A stretch of DNA of 64,000 nt. It comes from Fervidobacterium pennivorans. GTDB lineage: Bacteria; Thermotogota; Thermotogae; Thermotogales; Fervidobacteriaceae. A model generated the notes under the pieces. It searched no databases and was not told where the DNA came from. It saw only the letters and a list, made by a program, of their open reading frames with translations. The stretch spans positions 1,324,001 through 1,388,000 of the forward strand of contig NZ_CP011393.1 of assembly GCF_001644665.1 (NCBI RefSeq), in the 5' to 3' direction. Within the stretch, counting starts at the first letter, position 1, and every line of letters starts with the position of its first letter. Shown in pieces: positions 12,302-34,476 of this stretch. The position numbers and the translations under genes were made by a program.

Positions 12302-14779
12302 TTACACTTTTTTGGTTTTCCAAATATCTCTTACATATTCTTCGATAGTCCTATCACTTGAAAATTTCCCACTTCTTGCTATGTTGAGTAGCGATTTTTT
12401 GTTCCATTCTGCCTTGTTTAAAAATAGTTCTTCGACCTTTTTGTGTGTTTGTTCGTATGCTTCGAAGTCTGCTAATACAAAGTATTGGTCTGGCATAGGT
12501 GCAAACTTACCGTAAAGCAGGTTTTCATATATATCTACAAAAAGTTCTGGATTGTCTTTGTTGAAGTAACCGTTTCTAATCATATCAAGAACTCTTCGTA
12601 TTTTTTCGTTTTCCAGATATATACCGAACGGGTTGTAGATACCTTTTCTTCTTGCTTCTTCTATCTCTTCCGCTTTCAGACCAAAGATAAATATGTTTTC
12701 CGCCCCAACTTCTTCAAGCATCTCCACATTAGCACCATCAAGAGTTCCTACGGTCAGTGCGCCGTTTAACATGAATTTCATATTTCCGGTTCCTGATGCT
12801 TCAAAGCCAGCTGTTGATATCTGCTCGCTCACATTAGCAGCTGGGATTATTATTTGTGCGGCAGAAACATTGTAATTTGGTATGAATACCACTTTTAACT
12901 GTTTGCTAACAACAGGGTCATTGTTCACAACGTCTGCAACGCTGTTGATAAGTTTGATTATCAACTTCGCCATCCTGTATCCTGGTGCAGCTTTACCTGC
13001 AAAGATAAACGTTCTCGGAACTTTCAAGTGTTTCCCTTCTTTGATTTCGTTGTAAAGATGTATTATATGCAGTATGTTCAAAAGTTGTCTTTTGTATTCG
13101 TGAATTCTTTTTACTTGAATATCAAAAAGCGAGGCTGGGTCCAATGTAACACTGAGTTTGTCTTGCACGTATTTTGCAAGTCTTTCTTTATTCCACATCT
13201 TTGCTTGGTCAAGTTTTTCTAAGAACTCAGAATCATCAAGAAAAGCTTCAAGCTTTCTAAGTTCATACAAGTCCACAATCCATTTATCGCCTATTGATTC
13301 GGTTATGAGTTTTGCTAGGGGTGGATTACATTCAAGCAACCATCTTCTCTGTGTTACACCATTTGTCTTGTTGTTGAATTTTTCCGGATACATCTCGTAG
13401 AAATCTTTTAGCACAGTTCTTTTAAGTATTTCTGTATGCAGTTCTGAAACACCATTTATGGAGAATGAGGCAATTGAGCAAAGGTTAGCCATTCTGACTT
13501 TCTTTATGTTCCCCTCTTCGAAAACAGACATATTAATTATTTTCTGCAAATCTCCATTGAATTTTTCACTGACATCTTTCAAAAACCTTGCGTTGATTTC
13601 CTCAATAATCTGATAATGCCTTGGCAACATATTTTGGAGTAACGGAGCTTCCCATTTTTCCAGAGCTTCGGGCATTACGGTGTGGTTTGTGTATGCTATT
13701 GTGTTCTTGACTATTTCCCAAGCTTCTTCCCAGCTGTATCCTTCTTCATCAAGGAGTATACGCATCAATTCTGGAATAGCTAATGTCGGGTGCGTGTCGT
13801 TGAGTTGGATAACCTCTGACTGTGAAAGGTTGCTCAAATCGTTACCAAACCTTCGTTTATGTCTTCTAATGATGTCTTGTATGGCTGCGCTTACAAAGAA
13901 ATATTCTTGTTTTAATCTTAGCTCCCTACCTTGGAAGAATGCATCATTTGGGTACAATACTTTTGATAACGTTTCAGCAAGATTTTTCTCATACAAGGCT
14001 TTTTCGTAGTTACCCTTTTCAAATTCTGCGAAATTAAATTCATTTATAGCTCTTGGTTGCCACAGCCTGAGTACAGAAACGATATCACTGTTGTAGCCTG
14101 TTATATATATATCGTAAGGAACAACTAAAACATCGTATGTGTCGACCCATCTGAATTTCAGATGTCCTTTCTCATCTATGTAGCTTTCGCTTCTTCCGAA
14201 GAATTTTACGGTCACCGCTTCTTCTGGTTTAGGAAATTCCCAAGGATAACCGTTCTTTTGCCAGTCATCTGGTAATTCTTTTTGGAATCCGTTTTCGATT
14301 TCTTGTTTGAATAATCCGTACTGATACCTTATTGTGTAACCAAAAGAAAGATAACCAAGTGTTGCTAACGAATCGAGAAAACACGCTGCAAGTCTACCAA
14401 GTCCTCCGTTACCAAGAGCTGCGTCTTCTTCGAGCATGGCAATTTCGTCAAGCGAAAGACCATATGAAGCAAGCAATTCTTTTACCTCATCTTCAACTTG
14501 TAAGTTGAGTATGTTGTTGTACAAAAGCCTTCCAATGAGGAACTCCATCGAAAGGTAATTTACAATTCGCAGGTCTTTTCTGTTTAGTATTACTTCTTCA
14601 GTATTCAACCACTTTTCCGCTACTAAATCCCTAATAGAATAGGATATGGCTAAGAATTTTTGAAGAAGTGTGGAATGTTCTTTGTGTTCTGCAAGTGTAT
14701 GGTTGAGATGGTATTCAAACTGTTTGGGAATTTCTAAGAACTTGCCATTTATATGTTTAGACTTCGCTGTTCTTGGCAC
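12302..14779 (-). CDS. glgP: Glycogen/maltodextrin phosphorylase
   Basis: GT35 alpha-glucan phosphorylase releasing glucose-1-phosphate from alpha-1,4-glucans; pyridoxal phosphate dependent and cytoplasmic. At 825 residues it has the family length. Visible signatures are GNGGLGRLAACFLDSLA (substrate and PLP region, about 125-141), HVKRIHEYKRQ-type KRIHEYKRQLLN, and the PLP-lysine motif EASGTGNMKFMLNGA near residue 660. It starts with GTG at 14779 behind GAGGGGTG. It has its own promoter and a palindrome in its leader, and stands apart from the upstream gene run. Confidence 0.95.
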   Translation of the reverse strand: MPRTAKSKHINGKFLEIPKQFEYHLNHTLAEHKEHSTLLQKFLAISYSIRDLVAEKWLNTEEVILNRKDLRIVNYLSMEFLIGRLLYNNILNLQVEDEVKELLASYGLSLDEIAMLEEDAALGNGGLGRLAACFLDSLATLGYLSFGYTIRYQYGLFKQEIENGFQKELPDDWQKNGYPWEFPKPEEAVTVKFFGRSESYIDEKGHLKFRWVDTYDVLVVPYDIYITGYNSDIVSVLRLWQPRAINEFNFAEFEKGNYEKALYEKNLAETLSKVLYPNDAFFQGRELRLKQEYFFVSAAIQDIIRRHKRRFGNDLSNLSQSEVIQLNDTHPTLAIPELMRILLDEEGYSWEEAWEIVKNTIAYTNHTVMPEALEKWEAPLLQNMLPRHYQIIEEINARFLKDVSEKFNGDLQKIINMSVFEEGNIKKVRMANLCSIASFSINGVSELHTEILKRTVLKDFYEMYPEKFNNKTNGVTQRRWLLECNPPLAKLITESIGDKWIVDLYELRKLEAFLDDSEFLEKLDQAKMWNKERLAKYVQDKLSVTLDPASLFDIQVKRIHEYKRQLLNILHIIHLYNEIKEGKHLKVPRTFIFAGKAAPGYRMAKLIIKLINSVADVVNNDPVVSKQLKVVFIPNYNVSAAQIIIPAANVSEQISTAGFEASGTGNMKFMLNGALTVGTLDGANVEMLEEVGAENIFIFGLKAEEIEEARRKGIYNPFGIYLENEKIRRVLDMIRNGYFNKDNPELFVDIYENLLYGKFAPMPDQYFVLADFEAYEQTHKKVEELFLNKAEWNKKSLLNIARSGKFSSDRTIEEYVRDIWKTKKV

Positions 14780-23911: not shown

Positions 23912-25492
23912 ATGAAAAGCAAAGTAATTTTTGCAACTGTTTTAGTTGTATTGGTTGCGGCAATAGGTTATTCCCAGCTTATTATTTCCCATGAATCAGG
24001 ATTTTACGAGAGCCCATTCCAAGTGGAAATCAAATCAACGGTCGGTGGGCGTATCTACTATACCATGGATGGTACAGACCCAGCCGTTGGTAATCAAGGG
24101 ACTATTGAGTATGAAAGAGCGATACCTATAGTTGAACGATATGATAACACGCTCATTTATATTCCAACGTCTCCCTTATATTGGAAAACACCTGAAGGAG
24201 AATTCAAAAAAGCAACCGTTCTAAAGATTGTCGAGGTTGTGAATGGAAAAGTTACCGATAGTGCCGTCAGAACATACTTTGTAGGAATACACCACGACTT
24301 ACCAGTTGTTTCTATAATCACAGACCCGTCAAACCTTTTTGATGAAGAAAAGGGTATTTACGTTCCTGGTAAACTCTTTGATCCCACGAACCCTGAGTGG
24401 AGCGGTAACTACCACCAAAGGGGAAGCGATTGGGAAAGAAAGGCTATTATGGAATATTTTGAAAATGGAAAACTTGTTTACCGAACAGAGGTAGGCTTAA
24501 GGATCCATGGCGAATACACTCGGAATTTCCCGATAAAATCTCTCAGACTATATGCGAGAAACAAAGAAGGAGAGTTCACCTATCCGTTCTTTGGAAGGAA
24601 AGGTTACAAAAAGCTTATTTTGAGAAACTCTGGCAACGATTGGGAAGCAACGTATATTCGAGATTCAGCAGTCCAAGAAATCTTCAAGGGATTAAATTTT
24701 GATACACAGGATAATTATCCAGTTGTTCATTACATCAATGGAGAATACTGGGGTATAAGCTATTTAATGGAGTATTATGATCAAAGATACCTGCAAGTAA
24801 AACACGGGGTCAATGAGAAAAACACGGTGATTATAAATGGTGATTTGAGTATACAAGATGGAAAAGAAGGTGACCAAGAAAGTTTTGTCAGACTCGCCAA
24901 GTTTGTTAGGGACAACGACTTATCAAAACTTGAAAATTATTCGTATGTTGCGAATATGATAGATATTGACAGCTATATAGACTACAAAATTGCTGAAATC
25001 ATAGCGGCAAACATGGACTGGCCAGGTAATAACGAGCGGATGTGGCGAGTTTTGAAACCTGAAGACAAGCCGTTTGGGGATGGTAAATGGAGATGGATGA
25101 TGTACGACATGGACCTTTCCTTCTGGGAGCCAACGCATAACACATTAAAAGTTGCAATGTATGGTGACCCAAATGTTTGGGATACTGTAACAATGGGCGA
25201 AACGTCTACACTTCTTTTCAGAAAGCTATTAGAAAATGAAGAGTTTAGGAAGAGATTTTTGGAAAGGTTCGAATATATACTCAACGTCGTATTTGATGAG
25301 AATAGGGTTGTAAAAATCATAGACGAACATGCAGATCGAATAAAGGCAGAGATAGCCTTGCATTCCAGACGTTGGGGAAAGCCGGAAATAGATAATTGGG
25401 AAAGTGAAATAGAGTGGATGAAAGAGTTTGCAAGAGAACGGAAGAACTATATAAGAGAATACTTAAACGAGATTTTTAGAATTGGAAAGTGA
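23912..25492 (+). CDS. CotH-family kinase-like protein with N-terminal CHB/HEX domain
   Basis: Secreted or surface protein of 526 residues. A signal peptide (about 1-20, VLVVLVAAIGYS) is followed by a chitobiase/hexosaminidase C-terminal-like domain (YYTMDGTDPAVGN region, about 25-110) and then a CotH domain with LRNSGNDWEATYIRDSAVQE, YLMEYYDQRYLQVKHG and the metal-binding-like MYDMDLSFW. CotH proteins were named from Bacillus spores, where they phosphorylate coat proteins, but they are widespread in non-sporulating bacteria and often act on surface or secreted proteins. ATG 23912 behind AAAGGGGG. The IS copy A lies 24 bases upstream. Confidence 0.85.
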   Translation: MKSKVIFATVLVVLVAAIGYSQLIISHESGFYESPFQVEIKSTVGGRIYYTMDGTDPAVGNQGTIEYERAIPIVERYDNTLIYIPTSPLYWKTPEGEFKKATVLKIVEVVNGKVTDSAVRTYFVGIHHDLPVVSIITDPSNLFDEEKGIYVPGKLFDPTNPEWSGNYHQRGSDWERKAIMEYFENGKLVYRTEVGLRIHGEYTRNFPIKSLRLYARNKEGEFTYPFFGRKGYKKLILRNSGNDWEATYIRDSAVQEIFKGLNFDTQDNYPVVHYINGEYWGISYLMEYYDQRYLQVKHGVNEKNTVIINGDLSIQDGKEGDQESFVRLAKFVRDNDLSKLENYSYVANMIDIDSYIDYKIAEIIAANMDWPGNNERMWRVLKPEDKPFGDGKWRWMMYDMDLSFWEPTHNTLKVAMYGDPNVWDTVTMGETSTLLFRKLLENEEFRKRFLERFEYILNVVFDENRVVKIIDEHADRIKAEIALHSRRWGKPEIDNWESEIEWMKEFARERKNYIREYLNEIFRIGK

Positions 25493-25723
25493 TTTAATTA
25501 ACAAACAAATACGCAATTACTCTGTTTTACCGTTTAGTTGCTTGTTTTACAGTGATTTTTCGTATAACATTACCCAGGAAAATTATAAAATGGTTATTGA
25601 AAAGTCGTTTGCAAGAACTAATACCACTATTCCTTGCACAAGATGGAAAATTGCAGCAAACAGATTCATTTCCCTCAACTTGGTAAGTTCACCATTTTTC
25701 ATCTTAATACCCCTTTTCGTATG

Positions 25724-28063
25724 TTATATCTCCGGAGGAGTGACCTGCACAACCCAATCCCCCGGATATTTGGTTTTGATTTCACTAATTAAATTAACAA
25801 CTTTAGATACATTTGTGGTTTTAACAAAGAACTGATAACGATATTTGTTCGCAACTTTAAATACGGGGTGCTCAGAAGGGCCAAGTATTTCTATATACAG
25901 CTCTTCTGCGTTGAGAATTTCGTTGTAAACGGCGTCGATGGTTTCTCTGGCTATTTCTTCTGATTGGTTTGAATACATAACATGCACAATATCTGCGAAT
26001 GGAGGATAATTCAATTCTCTTCTTAACGACAATTCACGCTCGTAATAACCTATAACATCCTGTGCACTTGCGTAAACAATTACGGGATTGTTCGGGTCGT
26101 AGGTTTGTATGATAGCTTTGCCTTTTTCTTTTCTCCCAGCTCTACCAATGACTTGGACAAGGAGTTGAAAAGTTCTTAATGGAGCGTTTATATCAGGATA
26201 AGATATCAACGCATCGACGTCAACGATTCCAACGAGACCTATTCGATAGATATCCAGTCCTTTTGTTATCATCTTCGTCCCTGTAACGATTTCCAATTTT
26301 CCTTCTCTTAAAGCTTCGAGGACTTTTTTCAGTTTTTCAGGAGTGTCAATAATTTCTGCATCTATTCGTCCAATATTTTTACCAGGGAAGAGTTCCCTGA
26401 GTTCTCTTTCTATCTTTTCAGTCCCTGTGCCTTTGTCTGTGAATAGTTGAGAGCCACAAACTGGGCACATATTCGGAACACCTTTTTCCAAACCGCACAG
26501 ATGACATTTCAGCTTTTCGGAATCGGAGTGGTAAGTCATGGAGACATCGCAGTTGTCACATTTCACGGTGTGACCACATACGGCACATTGGACCCTTGAA
26601 AATCCTTTTCGACGGGTGAATATCAAAGCTGACATGCCCTTGTTTAGAACGTTTGTAATTTCTTCGTGAAGTGTCTTAGATATCGAAGGAGTCACTTTCT
26701 TTTCTTTCCTCATGTCGATGATTTCAACTTCTGGTAATTCTACGTTGAATCTCTTTGTGAGAACGTGGAATTTGTAGAGCCCATCCTTTGCAAGTTTGTA
26801 GGTTTCAAGATGTGGAGTTGCAGAGCCAAATATAACGGTTACTGGAAAGTGATGTAGTATCTTTCTCACATCGTAATATGGCTCACTGTTGTTGTAGTAT
26901 CCTTCGTCTTGTTCTTCATCAACAACGACAAGTTTTAAATTCTTCAAGGGAACGAAGAGGGCACTGCGCGGACCAACGAGGATGTTTATTTCCCCTTTTA
27001 CTGCTTTTGACCATATTTCTACCCTTTTTGCGTCTGTCTGATAGCTGTGATACACCGCGATGGGGATATCTGGAAAGTGTTTTCGCAGTCTTGCAATGGT
27101 TTGTTCTGTTAATGATATCTCTGGCACAAGGTAAATCACATTACCAAAGTTCAGTGCGTGTTTAATAACATCTAAATAAACCTCTGTTTTTCCGCTTCCT
27201 GTAGGACCAAAAAGTAGGTGTTTTAAATGCGTTTTTCGGTCGTTTAATTCTTCTAAGATATTTTCTACGGCTTTGTGCTGTTCGTCCGTTAGCTTTCTTT
27301 TGCTGCTAAGTTGTTCAGTTGTTTCGTTTGGAATTGGTTGTTCTGTTATTTCAACAACACCTTTATTTTTTAGTTGCACTAAAACACTTTTATCTATACC
27401 TTCGCCTTCCAAGTCGCTCAGTATTTCATCGACGGTTGATACTCCTTTTAAAAGCAAATAGTTTACAACTACCGATTGTTTTGAAGTCAATCGTAACTTT
27501 GCCAATTCTTCTGGGGAAGCTAAAAGCTTTACAAATTCTTCTTTGCCCCTTGGTCTTGGCTTTTTAGTTTCGAAATCGCGGAAAATTCTAACCAGCCCAT
27601 TTTCGATGTACTCTTTTGCCTTGCTCATTTTCCTAAATTCTTCGTATTTCATCTTTGGAAGGTTAAACAACGGGTTAGCACTTTCAACAAATAGCGTGAA
27701 GTATTTGTCAAAACTGGGAGGGAATGATAAGTCGAACAACCGACCTATTGGATAACCCAGAGAAAGTGCACAGTCGATAAATGCATTTAGTCGGACACTA
27801 TCTATGAATGAAATATAGTCACAACGTTCAATGATTTTCGGTACCTTAGATGAATTCAATCCTATTTTCTCATAGTCAATAAGTTCTTTTATGTTACTCT
27901 CCCATATTTTTTCAATACTCTCAAACTTTTGAACCACATACGCCAAAGTCTTTTTATTTCTAAAAGATACCACAACCCTTTCTCCAAGGGTTATGTTTTC
28001 AGCGGAAGAGTATACGAACATCTTGTTCTCCGAGTAATTCGATATTGCTACAACGTAATACAT
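25724..28063 (-). CDS. priA: Primosomal replication restart helicase PriA
   Basis: 3'-5' DNA helicase that reloads the replisome at stalled forks. The 779 residues contain an N-terminal DNA-binding region, helicase motif I GPTGSGKTEVY (about 290), motif II DEEQDEGYYN (the DEExH-type box), GSATPHLETY, and a zinc-binding insert with CAVCGHTVKCDNC and CHLCGLEKGVPNMCPVC, followed by TKMITKGLD and VIGRAGRKEKG. ATG 28063 behind AGGAGC. It starts 36 bases after the metF-like gene, so the two are probably cotranscribed. Confidence 0.95.
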   Translation of the reverse strand: MYYVVAISNYSENKMFVYSSAENITLGERVVVSFRNKKTLAYVVQKFESIEKIWESNIKELIDYEKIGLNSSKVPKIIERCDYISFIDSVRLNAFIDCALSLGYPIGRLFDLSFPPSFDKYFTLFVESANPLFNLPKMKYEEFRKMSKAKEYIENGLVRIFRDFETKKPRPRGKEEFVKLLASPEELAKLRLTSKQSVVVNYLLLKGVSTVDEILSDLEGEGIDKSVLVQLKNKGVVEITEQPIPNETTEQLSSKRKLTDEQHKAVENILEELNDRKTHLKHLLFGPTGSGKTEVYLDVIKHALNFGNVIYLVPEISLTEQTIARLRKHFPDIPIAVYHSYQTDAKRVEIWSKAVKGEINILVGPRSALFVPLKNLKLVVVDEEQDEGYYNNSEPYYDVRKILHHFPVTVIFGSATPHLETYKLAKDGLYKFHVLTKRFNVELPEVEIIDMRKEKKVTPSISKTLHEEITNVLNKGMSALIFTRRKGFSRVQCAVCGHTVKCDNCDVSMTYHSDSEKLKCHLCGLEKGVPNMCPVCGSQLFTDKGTGTEKIERELRELFPGKNIGRIDAEIIDTPEKLKKVLEALREGKLEIVTGTKMITKGLDIYRIGLVGIVDVDALISYPDINAPLRTFQLLVQVIGRAGRKEKGKAIIQTYDPNNPVIVYASAQDVIGYYERELSLRRELNYPPFADIVHVMYSNQSEEIARETIDAVYNEILNAEELYIEILGPSEHPVFKVANKYRYQFFVKTTNVSKVVNLISEIKTKYPGDWVVQVTPPEI

Positions 28064-28099
28064 CGTTACCTGCTCCTTTTGTTTGACTCTCTTGTTTTT

Positions 28100-28987
28100 T
28101 TAATACTGCGAAACTACTGCATCCGAAATTGTCTTTATCGTTTCCATTTTCTTTGTTGTGGAAGTGAGGTAAAAGCCATGGACATATGGTGCAAGCTTTT
28201 CAATTATGGAGATGCATTGATGAATTGAGTATTGTTCTAAATGTGCATCATTTTTTTGACGGAAGTATTCTTTTGGAACGAAGACGCCTGGGACTTTTGA
28301 GTAATGTTCAAGTTGTTGAAAGGATTCAAAAACCATGAGAGCGATGTAGATTTTAGTTCTTCTGAAAAGTTCTTCAGCTTCAGATTTTTCAAATAATTTT
28401 AAAATAGTCTCGGAATTGAAGATAGGTTGCGAGACGAAAAATTGGCATCCATTCTGCATTTTGAGTTCCATTCTTTCCAATGTCTGATTCAAATCTTTCT
28501 CAAATGGGCTGAAGACACCTCCCGCATTGAACGAGAAAGAACCAAAGATTTTCAAACCTGCGAGGTCTTCACCCTTTTCGTTCAGTAGTTTTGTTAGTTT
28601 GAACACATCGTATATACTAAAATCTTCAATACTCGATGAAAACGGATAGGTTCCAACCCTTGGGTCATCTCCGGAGAGAATCAAGAGATTCTTAATACCA
28701 AGCATGTGTGCAGCGATTAAATCACCTTCTATTCGAATTGCATTTCTCGTAGTTCGTGAAAAATGCATCAGCACCTCTAATCCCATTTCTACCAGCATAT
28801 GAGCAGGTGCTATGGGAGATACCCTTGCACTTCCCATAGGTAAATCTGTGACCGCAATTATTTGAGCTCCTTGTTCTACAGCTTCTTTGCAGAAAGCTAA
28901 GTATTTGTCTGGGTTCGTTCCCCTTGGAGGAAGTGTCTCTAGAATAAACCGATAAGCAAAAAATTCGGTTTTATTTGTTTCATCCAT
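28100..28987 (-). CDS. Methylenetetrahydrofolate reductase (MetF-like)
   Basis: A 295-residue TIM-barrel flavoprotein of the MTHFR family, reducing 5,10-methylene- to 5-methyl-tetrahydrofolate for methionine synthesis or one-carbon flow. Family features are the N-terminal glutamate in FILETLPPRGTNPDKY, IIAVTDLPMGSARVSPIAPA, LLILSGDDPRVG (the GDDP segment typical of MetF) and QFFVSQPIFNSET. ATG 28987 follows GAGGTG. It precedes priA. The family call is firm; the exact physiological electron donor is not visible. Confidence 0.85.
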   Translation of the reverse strand: MDETNKTEFFAYRFILETLPPRGTNPDKYLAFCKEAVEQGAQIIAVTDLPMGSARVSPIAPAHMLVEMGLEVLMHFSRTTRNAIRIEGDLIAAHMLGIKNLLILSGDDPRVGTYPFSSSIEDFSIYDVFKLTKLLNEKGEDLAGLKIFGSFSFNAGGVFSPFEKDLNQTLERMELKMQNGCQFFVSQPIFNSETILKLFEKSEAEELFRRTKIYIALMVFESFQQLEHYSKVPGVFVPKEYFRQKNDAHLEQYSIHQCISIIEKLAPYVHGFYLTSTTKKMETIKTISDAVVSQY

Positions 28988-29027
28988 ATGGTAACACCTC
29001 GAGTACTAAGAGTGGGGAAAAATCTAA

Positions 29028-29939
29028 TTAGTTTTCACAAATAAGCTTTCTGGTTGTTTCTGATAAGTATGCTTTTACAATATTGTATTCCCTCTTTCTG
29101 AGTTTTTCTAAAAGATACTTTTTCAGAAGTCTTGGCTCCTTTGTTACCTCATACCCTTTCAAGAAATAGTTTTCATCTTTTTCAAGATAGTACATAATTT
29201 CATAGTATTCTGGCAGGCGGTTGCTTACATTTTCCATTTTTGCGCGTAAAAGATTTTCAAGGTCTTGTCTTACAACACCTTTCGGAATACCTGTTCTCAA
29301 ATAGTTGTAAATAGTCAAGCAGGATTCTATGTCGTTAATATTCCTGGACTTTGCAATCTGTTCTTCAAAATAATTTTCTATGTCTTCGAATGCTTGGCCG
29401 GCGTAAAGGGCAATATCCATGTGGGGGTCCTTTTGCAACATCCGGAGGTATTTCATATTCTCCTCGACATCAATACCGTGTGTTACGTATGTGACAAGTT
29501 TCTGAGTAACGGCCTTCTTTTCAGTTGTGTCTCCAATAATAATAATTGTTTTCACCGGGAGAACTGATTTTACAGTTTCGTCGATATTTAGCCGGATCTC
29601 CGGTGGTAGTGGTATGTTGAAGAAGTCTTCAATTTCTTCATTTTTCAAAGGGATAAAGAATAGCCAGGATAGTGGATAAGCTAACACGAAAAGAACAACT
29701 TCCGGTAAATTTTTTCGCTCGATGTAAAAAAGAACTGCAGAAATGAGTATGACGATAAGGTTCTCTAAGCGGAATCCATAAAAAAGTATGGAGAAAAGGT
29801 TAATGAAAACTATAATTAGGTTGGTACCCGAAATTATTTTAGAGCTTAATTGTTGGTGTTTGTTAATAGAATTCTTTCTGATATTTCTCATCTCTCCGGA
29901 CCCTTTGAAATCTGCATTTTTAACATACCTCGATTTCAT
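29028..29939 (-). CDS. pelE: PelE-like membrane protein of a Pel-type polysaccharide cluster
   Basis: A 303-residue protein with two or three membrane helices (about 33-100: IISGTNLIIVFINLFSILFY, LIVILISAVLFYI, VVLFVLAYPLSWLFFIP) and a soluble helical C-terminus with repeated antiparallel-helix pairs (VEENMKYLRMLQKDPHMDIALYAG..., NDIESCLTIYNYLRTG), as in PelE, which has membrane helices plus TPRs. The start ATG overlaps the pelD-like stop by 20 bases. The call rests on this architecture and on the gene order G-D-E; sequence alone is weak. Confidence 0.55.
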   Translation of the reverse strand: MKSRYVKNADFKGSGEMRNIRKNSINKHQQLSSKIISGTNLIIVFINLFSILFYGFRLENLIVILISAVLFYIERKNLPEVVLFVLAYPLSWLFFIPLKNEEIEDFFNIPLPPEIRLNIDETVKSVLPVKTIIIIGDTTEKKAVTQKLVTYVTHGIDVEENMKYLRMLQKDPHMDIALYAGQAFEDIENYFEEQIAKSRNINDIESCLTIYNYLRTGIPKGVVRQDLENLLRAKMENVSNRLPEYYEIMYYLEKDENYFLKGYEVTKEPRLLKKYLLEKLRKREYNIVKAYLSETTRKLICEN

Positions 29940-31191
29940 ATTTATTGATCAACCTCTCAAGTATTTTTGCCTTTCCTTGAGCGTCGCAGACAGCTAAGAG
30001 GGCTCTTAGGACAATTTTACCATTTGTAGGGTATGCTACTAGCACATCGGATTTTCTGAAAGTGTTTACTATGGAGTTGTGGTATTCGGATTTGTAGGTT
30101 ATACATAATTCCTCATAAGGTATGCCAAATCTTTCTTTTCGTTTCTCGAAGACTTTCTTCTTTTTAATGTAGTAATTTTCGTCCCAAGTTCCGTCTGGTT
30201 TTTTGTAGACTTCTTCCAGAGCTCTCTCTTCTTGCAGTATTGTCCTGACGTTTGCATACAACCAACCTGCAACAGCACTTATGTATTTTACAAGAGTTTC
30301 TGAAAACTTTTCTGGCGAAACATCTTCAACGACGAAAACACCAAAGGCATTTGATTTTTCACCAATTACCACGGCAAACCAAGGTTCGAAGGAAGTTATA
30401 TCTGCTTTCATTATAACTTTGGGAAGCGTTGAATATCCGTTTTGAAGAGCATCGTAAATGACACTGGATTTTGTTGCATCGAGCGAATTTGGTAGTCTTT
30501 TCTGACCTATGCCAGCTACATACCTCATGAAGTTCCCCTCGCAGCGGTAGAGATGAAGATTTTCGAGTTCGAAGAACTCAGCGATAATTTCGACAGCCCT
30601 CGTAAGCATTTCATCCACATCTAGTATTTCCAATTCTCTAAGCCTTTCAAGTAAAACTATCAATCCTTCACCTTCAAAGTAAATTCTCATTTGCAATTGA
30701 GAGATGACTACTCTCATATCGCCTATAGCAGAAAGTAGCTTCTGGTTTTCCAGCTCCAGTCTTTTCTTATCGTTTTGTAAATCTCTAATCTTTTTATTAA
30801 GCATCTCACCAACAACTCCAATTATGAGTCCAACAACAATGGTAAAAATTGAAACGGTATTTAAACTCAGTCCACCAATGTTTTGCACTTGTTTGAAAAG
30901 TGTTAGTAGCAGTAACTGGAATATCGAAATCGATACTAAGAAAGGCAGTAACCCATATCTTGCGGACCATATGAAGATGAAGGCAACAAGAAAAACAATT
31001 GTAACTGAAGAGCTTATAACAGAAGTGAGGTGCAAGGTAATCACTATAGCAAATGATATTATCAGTTCCAACAGTTGGAACAAAAAGCTTTTCAAGTTTG
31101 TAAAGTTGTTTTTTTGAATGAGTTTTTTCAATGCTTTGTTATTCCATAGTTTGGGAGTCTTATGTTTTCCTGTATCATTCAGTTTCTTCAA
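29920..31191 (-). CDS. pelD: PelD-like c-di-GMP receptor with GAF and degenerate GGDEF domains
   Basis: A 423-residue membrane protein: four hydrophobic helices (about 38-135), a short coiled coil (KIRDLQNDKKRLELENQKLL), a GAF domain (about 175-315) and a degenerate GGDEF domain (about 330-423). Near the end FRKSDVLVAYPTNGK aligns with the usual LRxxD...RYGGDEF: the I-site RxxD is kept (Arg379, Asp382), while YPTNGK replaces GGDEF. This is the hallmark of PelD, which switches on Pel polymer synthesis when c-di-GMP binds. It overlaps pelG by 17 bases and pelE by 20. Confidence 0.82.
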   Translation of the reverse strand: MKKLNDTGKHKTPKLWNNKALKKLIQKNNFTNLKSFLFQLLELIISFAIVITLHLTSVISSSVTIVFLVAFIFIWSARYGLLPFLVSISIFQLLLLTLFKQVQNIGGLSLNTVSIFTIVVGLIIGVVGEMLNKKIRDLQNDKKRLELENQKLLSAIGDMRVVISQLQMRIYFEGEGLIVLLERLRELEILDVDEMLTRAVEIIAEFFELENLHLYRCEGNFMRYVAGIGQKRLPNSLDATKSSVIYDALQNGYSTLPKVIMKADITSFEPWFAVVIGEKSNAFGVFVVEDVSPEKFSETLVKYISAVAGWLYANVRTILQEERALEEVYKKPDGTWDENYYIKKKKVFEKRKERFGIPYEELCITYKSEYHNSIVNTFRKSDVLVAYPTNGKIVLRALLAVCDAQGKAKILERLINKYEIEVC

Positions 31192-32587
31192 AATATTTGT
31201 TTTCGTGGATAATCACCTGCCTTAAAGGAAGAGATAGTCTGTTTCGTATGAACTCAAAGTGGAGCAAATCTTTGTATACGGCTCTGAATTTTGTCCAGCT
31301 GTAAATCACTGCTATGATGAATCCTATAGCAAATCCAATACCGGGGAAACGTATGATAGTTAACATCGAGAATACGAAGTTAACCGTGAATGCGATTATG
31401 GAAGCATACATAGGAATATCTGGCAAATCAAAGTAATGAGCAATCAGTGAAACGTAGAGAAAAATACCGTTCGCTGCAGCTCCCACAATACCAAATCTTA
31501 AGGCTTTAAGACCATAATCGTTTAACAACAAAGCTTTTGCAAAAGGACCCGAGAGTATTAAGCCAGAAAGCATAAAAGCGAATTGGACTGAAAGAATGAG
31601 TTTTGTGGTTGCGTATAAGTTATTATCGAGTGTTTCTTTGGCGAGCTTGATATATGTAAGTGTGCGATTTTCTTCTATCGATTGGTAGAAAGCCCTGTAA
31701 TTAAAGTAGAAATCAGTTTCTAAGTTCAGCACAAAGAGTGTCAGCGTTGGGACAATAAAGAGATAAGAAATGAACATAGGGATATCATACTGAGGAGCAA
31801 AAATGAAACCTTTTGAAATTGAGTATTTGAAATAAGACCATGCGATGAAATCGTCTATCCAGGCTGCCATATAAGTTATGAAACCCGAAACGGCTTGTTT
31901 TTTGTATTTTTTTACGGCTTCCAGGAATAGAAGTTTGGTCTCTTTGGAAGGTTTCACAACAAACAAATAGCGCCTTATAAACAACTGGAGCATTGAAGCT
32001 ATAAACATCAGTCCGAAGTTGTAACCCAAATAAGAAAAGTATTCGCCTCTAAATTTAAAAAGATAAACACTTCCAAACAGACTCAGCAGACTTCCGAATA
32101 AAAAACTGAGTACAACAGGAGTAAAAACCCTTATTGCCGTTATGAAAATGACTTGTACCCAAATGATTGTCAAACTTGTTAGAGAATATGAAAACAGAAA
32201 TATTTTCCAAAGCTCTGTAATTTTATTTATTAGGAAGAAGACAGTTAGGAAAGTTGCGGAAGAAAAGACTGCATATCCAAGAGATGAAATGTAAAGCCCA
32301 TATATTTTTTCGAATTCCTTTTTGTAGATTAAATCCGCTAGAAACCTCGTTACAGAAGTGGAAACACTGCCGAAGATTATCGTGGAAAAGATAAACGTGT
32401 ATATGATTGCCGAAATAAAGAACGGTATCTCATTTTGCGGAATGAGTAATTGAATAACAACAAGAGTGACAGAAGACATTATCCAAGGTCCAGCACTAAC
32501 ATTTGCTGAATAAAAGAAACTGAATATATCAGAAAAAAAAGAGTTTTTACTTAACAATTTGTTGAGTTCAAAACCAATCCCCGCCAT
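31175..32587 (-). CDS. pelG: PelG-like polysaccharide export/synthesis membrane protein
   Basis: A 470-residue polytopic protein with about twelve hydrophobic helices and the characteristic PelG opening MAGIGFELNKLLSKNSF, followed by SANVSAGPWIMSSVTLVV. PelG resembles flippases of the MATE/PST type and works with PelD, PelE and the glycosyltransferase PelF in making the Pel exopolysaccharide. It heads the overlapping trio G-D-E on the minus strand. ATG 32587 behind AAGGGG. No pelF, pelA, pelB or pelC is within this window. Confidence 0.85.
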   Translation of the reverse strand: MAGIGFELNKLLSKNSFFSDIFSFFYSANVSAGPWIMSSVTLVVIQLLIPQNEIPFFISAIIYTFIFSTIIFGSVSTSVTRFLADLIYKKEFEKIYGLYISSLGYAVFSSATFLTVFFLINKITELWKIFLFSYSLTSLTIIWVQVIFITAIRVFTPVVLSFLFGSLLSLFGSVYLFKFRGEYFSYLGYNFGLMFIASMLQLFIRRYLFVVKPSKETKLLFLEAVKKYKKQAVSGFITYMAAWIDDFIAWSYFKYSISKGFIFAPQYDIPMFISYLFIVPTLTLFVLNLETDFYFNYRAFYQSIEENRTLTYIKLAKETLDNNLYATTKLILSVQFAFMLSGLILSGPFAKALLLNDYGLKALRFGIVGAAANGIFLYVSLIAHYFDLPDIPMYASIIAFTVNFVFSMLTIIRFPGIGFAIGFIIAVIYSWTKFRAVYKDLLHFEFIRNRLSLPLRQVIIHENKYFEETE

Positions 32588-32624
32588 ATTTACCCCTTTT
32601 TAGGAAATTATTGGTTACATAGAA

Positions 32625-32633
32625 ATTATAACA
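32625..32633 (-). promoter_or_regulatory. Extended -10 promoter for pelG-pelD-pelE
   Basis: Minus-strand TGTTATAAT, about 38 bases before the pelG start; the -35 region (TTTTAT) is poor. It lies directly downstream of the hairpin at 32657. Confidence 0.55.
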
Positions 32634-32649
32634 CAATGTGTGCATAAAT

Positions 32650-32681
32650 AAAAAATACCCCCGGTCCATTATCCGGGGGGT
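32650..32681 (-). terminator. Terminator-like hairpin upstream of pelG
   Basis: GC-rich stem ACCCCCGG/CCGGGGGT (32657-32681) with loop TCCATTAT; on the minus strand it is followed by ATTTTTTATTT. No gene on that strand lies upstream for over 300 bases, so it either ends an unannotated small RNA or acts as an attenuator in a longer pelG leader. Next to it is the perfect inverted repeat TTGAAAAAGTTTTTCAA (32683-32699). Confidence 0.6.
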
Positions 32682-32910
32682 CTTGAAAAAGTTTTTCAAC
32701 TCTTCCAAGGGGGGATAGGGGGGTCGCTGCACATATATTATCAGATATGTAAGGTAAAGTTTCAAGTATCGCAGTGTTAATGGAATGATACGGTTAGTTC
32801 AAATTCATGTTTAGATAAACTAGGTTTGAAGGTTTCGCATGGGTTTTTAACCATTTTTGGGAACAACCTATGTGTTGTTAAGTATAAATGTAGGCACGCG
32901 CCATATAAGT

Positions 32911-32939
32911 TTGCATTGAAATTTGTTTTGGTGTATAAT
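32911..32939 (+). promoter_or_regulatory. Promoter of the RnfB-like/dprA/panC gene run
   Basis: TTGCAT (32911-32916), exactly 17 bases, then perfect TATAAT (32934-32939). It is one of the best -35/-10 pairs in the window and precedes the start at 33022 by about 80 bases. Confidence 0.65.
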
Positions 32940-33021
32940 AATTAAAAAACACAGTAGGTTAAGCTTGCTTTTTTTCGAACATTTTCCATTATTATTTCAT
33001 ATATATTCGGAGGTGAACGGT

Positions 33022-33303
33022 GTGGTGGTCGTTTACTCGGCAGTCCTGCTTGGAGGACTAGGTTTTGCTTTTGGGTTGTTTCTTTCATATGTTTCTGAAA
33101 AGTTCAAAGTCGAAGAGGACCCAACGGTCAAGCTCATTTTAGAGGCTTTACCTGGAATAAATTGTGGTGCATGTGGTTATCCTGGATGCGAAGGTTACGC
33201 CAAAGCTATCGCCAAAGGAGATAAGCCTGATAAATGTTTGCCAGGTAAAAAGTCTGGAGTTGAAGAAAAAATCAGGCAGATACTTAGTCAGAAAAATAAC
33301 TAA
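33022..33303 (+). CDS. Small RnfB-like iron-sulfur protein, N-terminal domain only
   Basis: The protein has 93 residues: one N-terminal membrane helix (about 3-24, GGLGFAFGLFLSYV) followed by the RnfB-type Fe-S domain with Cys48, Cys51, Cys56 and Cys72 (INCGACGYPGCEGYAKAI ... KCLPG). In RnfB this domain is followed by two ferredoxin clusters; they are absent here, and no other rnf gene is near. The longer frame from 32923 would include the promoter; GTG 33022 lies eight bases after GGAGG. Role in electron transfer is inferred; partner unknown. Confidence 0.8.
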   Translation: MVVVYSAVLLGGLGFAFGLFLSYVSEKFKVEEDPTVKLILEALPGINCGACGYPGCEGYAKAIAKGDKPDKCLPGKKSGVEEKIRQILSQKNN

Positions 33304-33363
33304 CTGCTGATTTCTGGAACGTTTTGCTAAAAATTAGAACCTATATATCTTGGGGGATAGGGG

Positions 33364-34374
33364 ATGGGGTTGGATACTTCGCTGAGTATTGTTGCACTTT
33401 CTAAGGTTTTTAAGAAGAATATTACGCAGATAGAGCAATATCTGCATTATGAGCCAACAATCTTTGAAGATTTTGAGAACTCCTCGCGGGAATTTTCAGA
33501 ACTGATTACCAGATTGTCGATTTATTTGCGTGAAACAGGTACTAAGCTGATAACTTACTGGGATGAAGAGTATCCTCAATCGTTAAAGAACATACCGGAC
33601 CCTCCGGTATGTTTATTTGTTAAAGGAAAATGGGAGTATTTGTCGTATAATCTTTTCGCAGTTGTTGGAACGCGTAAGATGACTAGCTACGGCAAACAGG
33701 TAACAGAAAGATTTGTTAGCGAAATTTCAAAACATTTTGTAATCGTGAGCGGTATGGCTTACGGAGTTGATACCATAGCACATTCGAGTGCTTTAAGGTT
33801 GAACAGACCTACCATTGCTGTGCTTGGATGTGGCGTGGATGTGGTGTATCCTAAATCAAATAAGATGCTTTACGAACAAATAATAGATAACGGGTGCGTA
33901 GTTAGCGAATATCTGCCTTGGGAATCGCCTAAGAAATTCACATTTGTAGAGAGAAATAGAATAATATCTGGTCTTTCGGTAGGTGTATTGGTCACCGAAG
34001 CTGGTGTTGAAAGTGGTGCGCTCATAACGGCAAAGTACGCTATTGAACAAGGAAGAGATGTTTTTGCAGTTCCAGGAGATATCTTTAGAACAACTTCTCA
34101 GGGGACAAATTACCTTATTAAAAGCGGAGCCTTTGTTGCAACCGAACCTTCTGATATACTTGAATACTACGGCTTTAAAGACCACAGAAAGATAGTTGAA
34201 CTGACGGATGATGAAGCTCAAATCTTCGGTGCCATTGAAAGTGAGGTAACAATAGAAGAAATGTCAGAAAAACTAAATGTCCCAATCTCGCAAGTTATGC
34301 TCATTTTAACGACTTTGGAGCTCAAAGGTCTTGTTTACAGGACAGAACGCAATACGTATGCAAGGGCTAGGTAA
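33364..34374 (+). CDS. dprA: DNA-processing protein DprA
   Basis: Loads RecA on incoming single-stranded DNA during natural transformation and protects it. The 336 residues hold the Rossmann-like DprA core: VVGTRKMTSYGKQVTERF (about 100-117), VSGMAYGVDTIAHSSAL, VLGCGVDVVYPKSN, FVERNRIISGLS and the SGALITAKYAIEQGRDVFAVPG stretch, then a C-terminal winged helix (VTIEEMSEKLNVPISQVMLI). ATG 33364 behind GGGGGATAGGGG. With the CinA-family protein elsewhere in this window it hints at competence, though cinA in many bacteria has only a metabolic role. Confidence 0.93.
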   Translation: MGLDTSLSIVALSKVFKKNITQIEQYLHYEPTIFEDFENSSREFSELITRLSIYLRETGTKLITYWDEEYPQSLKNIPDPPVCLFVKGKWEYLSYNLFAVVGTRKMTSYGKQVTERFVSEISKHFVIVSGMAYGVDTIAHSSALRLNRPTIAVLGCGVDVVYPKSNKMLYEQIIDNGCVVSEYLPWESPKKFTFVERNRIISGLSVGVLVTEAGVESGALITAKYAIEQGRDVFAVPGDIFRTTSQGTNYLIKSGAFVATEPSDILEYYGFKDHRKIVELTDDEAQIFGAIESEVTIEEMSEKLNVPISQVMLILTTLELKGLVYRTERNTYARAR

Positions 34375-34476
34375 ACATTAAAAACGGTGTAATAAAACGC
34401 ACGCCAATATGCGGCGGTAATATCGAATATCGATTGTTCGAGATGTTTTTGCGAACGTATGGAAGGAGGCGAAAAT

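Follow-up and report, generated by a model that had tools for sequence, protein, structure and literature searches.

The genes for Pel, a polysaccharide of biofilms, usually form a single operon, an arrangement that is not biochemically required. In Fervidobacterium pennivorans, three overlapping genes resembling pelG, pelD and pelE stand apart from the glycosyltransferase gene pelF, raising the question of whether they are half of a Pel system, a remnant of one or the partner of another glycosyltransferase. The genes lie in a window of 64,000 nucleotides (G000:C1:1324001-1388000), which is the whole stretch of DNA analyzed, in a genome of 2.06 Mb on one contig; coordinates refer to the window unless prefixed by C1. 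A preliminary description considered the system partial. The evidence presented here makes it very probable that the trio belongs to a complete, c-di-GMP-gated, Gram-positive-type Pel machine that is dispersed over the Fervidobacterium chromosome.

Identity of the three genes

The trio consists of the following genes, named in the preliminary description in the order G-D-E.

31175..32587, minus strand: pelG, PelG-family polysaccharide exporter of 470 aa (PF16933)
29920..31191, minus strand: pelD, four TM helices, coiled coil, GAF and degenerate GGDEF domains, with an RxxD I-site (R379xxD382)
29028..29939, minus strand: pelE, N-terminal membrane helices and a helical-repeat domain

The open reading frame coordinates, which are confirmed, give minus-strand overlaps of 17 bp between pelG and pelD and 20 bp between pelD and pelE. 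The PelG assignment rests on a Pfam profile search, in which PF16933 matched at E=1.1e-103 over 443 of the 470 residues and neither MATE nor any other family was found. PelG shares 54-71% identity with the PelG proteins of Fervidobacterium and its sister genus, at which distance synonymous sites are saturated.

Identification of PelD relied on structure. Sequence searches returned a weak, sub-threshold GAF_3 match, and a sequence-profile comparison with the PDB did not reach PelD structures, which the fold search did reach. The AlphaFold2 model, derived from 20 Thermotogota sequences (pLDDT 82), contains, besides four TM helices at the N terminus, a coiled coil and both a GAF and a degenerate GGDEF domain. 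In a Foldseek comparison with the whole PDB, the Pseudomonas aeruginosa PelD structures, including c-di-GMP complexes, took the first six places, with 4etz matched at E=4e-9. R379 and D382 of the c-di-GMP I-site are invariant in all 35 Thermotogota PelD sequences and are among only nine invariant residues besides the start; the GGDEF motif itself is not kept in the domain bearing the I-site. The ligand is plausibly made in the cell, as the genome has 17 GGDEF-domain matches.

The weakest label of the three is pelE. The protein had no match in the family library and none outside the phylum at the thresholds used, and its all-helical model (pLDDT 80) of membrane helices and a repeat domain gave no confident match in the PDB, where helical-repeat noise was led by 14-3-3 proteins. 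A PelE homologue adjoins pelD in every relative read with a complete pelD. Architecture and neighborhood are as expected for the inner-membrane TPR protein, with a confident structural match absent.

All three genes are full length. Compared with genomes G001, G003 and G008, the trio displays dN of 0.22-0.47 with saturated synonymous differences, a pattern indicating that the genes are intact and under constraint, not decaying.

Remaining Pel genes in the genome

Genes for PelF, a PelA deacetylase and a GH114/GH191 hydrolase are present in the same genome, contrary to the description of the system as partial and in agreement with its suggestion that PelF might lie elsewhere. A genome search for PelF and PelA found the two side by side. 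The pelF gene at C1:502087, ∼850 kb from the trio, encodes a PF11997 (DUF3492) domain (E=3e-75) and a GT4 domain. Downstream of pelF and overlapping it is pelA_DA, which encodes a 741-aa DUF2194 protein (E=1.7e-167). This protein matches the Bacillus cereus PelADA structure 9zau at E=1.4e-36 and keeps the active-site motifs DD, HxxxH, Arg and HPDD, as compared with the residues reported for PelADA (PMC13254593). A third locus at C1:235181 encodes a TM1410-like GH114/GH191 hydrolase (E=1e-33 to TM1410) with equivalents of the catalytic Asp156/Glu225 (PMC12054363). TmGH191 showed no activity on fungal GAG, while one other GH191 enzyme cleaves Pel (PMC12054363). A cotH-family gene, a known accessory gene of Pel loci (PMC7112168), lies 3.5 kb from the trio.

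23912..25492, plus strand: cotH-family gene (PF08757, E=1.8e-62)

The Pel genes of this genome are therefore spread over three loci and not one operon. No pelB- or pelC-like genes were recognized in any of the pel clusters read.

Distribution and gene-order history

Pel operons in Thermotogae have been reported earlier (PMC7112194). Profile cut-offs for PelG, PelF and DUF2194 were applied to 103 Thermotogota genomes, of which 40, 41 and 35, respectively, passed. PelF is present in all 40 genomes with PelG; this co-occurrence, together with PelF in the genome itself, leaves the proposed need for another glycosyltransferase without a basis. The distance between the two genes is <6 kb in 27 of 34 genomes with comparable positions, and the seven genomes in which they are apart are exactly the seven Fervidobacterium among the 34.

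Outside Fervidobacterium, the prevailing layouts are D-E-x-F-G-A_DA(-GH191) and A_DA-G-D-E with a convergent F. The sister genus, represented by genome G010, has a contiguous cotH-slyD-pelF-pelA_DA-pelG-pelD-pelE-5'-nucleotidase arrangement. In Fervidobacterium, slyD-pelF-pelA_DA and the 5'-nucleotidase gene are still together, with a DUF155 gene between, and G-D-E is placed between the rnfB-like gene and metF-priA. Because A_DA-G-D-E is adjacent in distant lineages, the split is the derived state. These gene orders indicate that one contiguous cluster was broken up in Fervidobacterium and that pelGDE moved as a block. The suggestion of a different polymer in Thermotogota finds no sign here, as the clusters of relatives are orthologous pel clusters.

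Genome G078, from another family, harbors a contiguous pelF-G-D-E set, with PelF and PelD nested inside the Fervidobacterium radiation, and has no match to the DUF2194 deacetylase in the entire genome. A test for a single clade of Fervidobacterium pel genes gave p=0.003 for PelF, p=0.0125 for PelD and p=0.21 for PelG, a mixed result due to G078 falling inside Fervidobacterium. Either re-assembly after transfer or repeated splitting would account for G078.

Pel is dispensable, since G005 and G006 lack both pelG and pelF and the trio is broken in G002. In the latter genome, the 3' end of pelG, the whole of pelD and the beginning of pelE have given way to an IscB-type gene (RRXRR and HNH; L081 6741-8015) with a deletion, and pelF and pelA_DA remain intact. 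In G009, pelG is split over two frames.

Copy number and gene content vary elsewhere in the phylum. Three Thermotoga genomes (L065, L066 and L067) have two tandem pelG-D-E plus pelF sets arranged around one pelA_DA and one GH191 gene. G072-G074 (L075, L076) have pelD-E-x-F-G and no DUF2194 match above the cut-off genome-wide; in the two of these that were read, G072 and G073, the neighbors of pelG encode a GTPase and a PLD-like protein.

Insertion site and probable recent exchange

The flanking genes are as first described, with a metF-like gene downstream and a divergent gene for an RnfB-like Fe-S protein upstream.

25724..28063, minus strand: priA, 36 bp downstream of metF
28100..28987, minus strand: metF-like gene (PF02219, MTHFR, E=3e-23), 40 bp downstream of pelE
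32625..32633, minus strand: extended -10 (TGtTATAAT), read directly from the sequence
32650..32730, minus strand: sRNA-like gene with a C-rich single-stranded 5' end, a 12-bp hairpin and an intrinsic terminator
32923..33303, plus strand: RnfB-like Fe-S protein gene (PF04060, E=4e-13), true start probably near 33013

The order pelE-metF recurs in G001, G002, G003, G004 and G008, and the metF-like gene is probably co-transcribed with pelE. A priA homologue follows metF in the other Fervidobacterium; priA is not part of Pel. The extended -10 likely drives pelG; G001, G002, G007 and G008 have similar TATAAT-like sites in the corresponding position. In the pel-less G005, the rnfB-like gene, the sRNA-like element and metF are together with the trio absent between them, which places the landing site of pelGDE between the rnfB-like gene/sRNA-like element and metF. 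The G005 arrangement is probably a secondary loss, as the whole Pel pathway is absent from that genome. In G003, the rnfB-like gene is separated from the sRNA-like element by an IS240-type DDE transposase gene (L049 7149-8087).

The trio is included in a tract that is nearly identical to its counterpart in another Fervidobacterium species, G004.

25590..34403: tract of ∼8.8 kb with ∼99.5% identity to G004

Sliding identity and a mismatch map reveal sharp edges, and the right flank has 83-94% identity to G004. Between the same two genomes, pelF/pelA_DA display dS of 0.33-0.45. Recent homologous exchange between species would most simply have carried priA-metF-pelEDG-rnfB-dprA.

A small RNA-like gene upstream of pelG

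In Fervidobacterium, the pelGDE block lies directly behind the sRNA-like element. Preceded by its own -35/-10-like boxes, the element (32730-32650, minus strand) has the 5' part GCAGCGACCCCCCUAUCCCCCC, followed by the 12-bp hairpin and the intrinsic terminator. Its predicted fold (-28.8 kcal/mol, z -3.3) is due to the hairpin and terminator. All eight Fervidobacterium having the element, as well as three other genera, share an identical sequence over its first 28 nt. When the 103 Thermotogota genomes were searched with a covariance model, 24 had the element, always in exactly one copy, including 18 of the 20 genomes of the family; the 21-nt core is matched perfectly in 18 genomes, and its reversed control is matched in no genome. 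Changes on both sides are seen in 6 of 12 hairpin pairs, a number reached by 0 of 500 shuffles, with the count leaning towards the model to which the alignment was fitted. No Rfam family was matched above the gathering cut-off.

The element, consisting of CAGCGACCCCCCTATCCCCCC, the covarying hairpin and a terminator, has varying contexts among these 24 genomes, with neighbors that include rnfB-like/pelG or metF, dnaB, an nfn-type reductase gene and a spoIIE-type phosphatase gene. A role as a riboswitch or attenuator of pel was considered and rejected, as the element occurs without pel in G005 and beside dnaB, nfn-type and spoIIE-type genes elsewhere. Conservation in two families whatever the neighbors indicates that the element is independent of pel. 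Regulation of pel by the element is possible and not indicated, since pelG apparently has a separate extended -10 just behind the terminator.

These features are consistent with a gene for a trans-acting sRNA whose seed is C-rich. There is a good probability that it represents a new trans-acting sRNA family of Thermotogales, single copy, with a 5' single-stranded CAGCGACCCCCCUAUCCCCCC seed, a covarying hairpin and a varying terminator; the CAGCGACCCCCCUAUCCCCCC seed is a possible anti-Shine-Dalgarno sequence. The gene is apparently undescribed. In T. maritima, 12-13 putative ncRNAs have been reported (PMC3636130). If true, the assignment adds a conserved member to the few regulatory RNAs known from the phylum.

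Alternative explanations

The physical separation of the two halves invites the explanation that the trio is uncoupled from PelF and serves another glycosyltransferase and polymer, with pelF-pelA_DA making something else. The trio and pelF are apart, with different neighbors, in all seven Fervidobacterium, and the G002 genome has lost its trio while retaining pelF and pelA_DA. However, PelG and PelF share their gains and losses, both being absent from G005 and G006, and all other Fervidobacterium carrying Pel keep the two halves intact and conserved, making such uncoupling improbable. The absence of the trio from G005 and G006 and its damage in G002 and G009 would also be expected if a Pel operon had been lost and the trio were its decaying remains. 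This explanation is disfavored and has a very small probability, as the three genes are full length with dN far under the saturated dS and the PelD I-site is invariant; likewise, the combination of an absent PelF with a decayed trio is not what the genome contains.

PelG is a multi-pass protein and belongs to a broad flippase superfamily, so that 31175-32587 might be read as a generic MATE/Wzx-type flippase beside genes labeled PelD and PelE by coincidence. This reading has a negligible probability and is refuted by PF16933 as the sole match along the whole length of PelG, by the PelD structures returned in the fold search and by the linkage to pelF/pelA conserved in relatives. The assignment of the open reading frame to another MATE-like family, as entertained in the preliminary description, fails on the same profile search.

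Proposed function and relation to known Pel systems

The complete but dispersed Pel machine is the preferred explanation. The analysis establishes homology, co-occurrence, gene-order history and the conservation of active-site and ligand-binding residues; complex assembly, c-di-GMP gating, polymer identity and export across the toga are inferred. The trio would supply the membrane and regulatory components of a Pel synthase-exporter of Gram-positive type, in which PelG would export the polymer, PelD would sense c-di-GMP via its I-site and PelE may act as a helical-repeat membrane partner. PelF, a GT4 enzyme, would polymerize GalNAc, PelA_DA would deacetylate the polymer, which in Pel systems consists of alpha-1,4 GalN/GalNAc, and the unlinked GH191-type hydrolase would trim it. 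The cluster was once contiguous in the family and was later split in Fervidobacterium, with pelGDE moving between the sRNA-like gene and metF. What seemed to be half a system thus becomes a complete, dispersed pathway, and Fervidobacterium provides a natural test of whether operon co-expression is needed for Pel assembly. New in this analysis are the scattering of the pel genes, the relocation of pelGDE as a block, the link of TM1410 to a Pel cluster and the sRNA-like gene.

The T. maritima TM1410 region (L064) consists of pelA_DA-G-D-E, a convergent pelF and a GH191 gene (12348-13319) divergent from pelA_DA; the GH191 protein of G090 is identical to TM_1410 at 323 of 323 residues. TM1410, an orphan GH191 enzyme, hence gains a Pel context beside the pelA deacetylase, which makes Pel in a partially deacetylated form, and not fungal GAG, its candidate substrate. 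In contrast with the dispersed genes of Fervidobacterium, those of T. maritima are contiguous.

The pelDEADAFG operon of B. cereus ATCC 10987 (PMC7112168) is alike in PelD, PelE, PelA_DA, PelF and PelG and in having a separate hydrolase; it is likewise without pelB/pelC, and cotH is an accessory gene in related loci. It differs from the Fervidobacterium system, which occupies three chromosomal sites, has a GH191-type (TM1410-like) hydrolase and a PelD without the N-terminal epimerase domain, and belongs to a thermophile with a toga. The pelABCDEFG operon of P. aeruginosa is alike in the PelD fold and I-site, PelG, PelF and PelE architecture, whereas its PelA is a hydrolase-deacetylase fusion accompanied by PelB and PelC; neither this fusion nor B/C is seen in the clusters read here.
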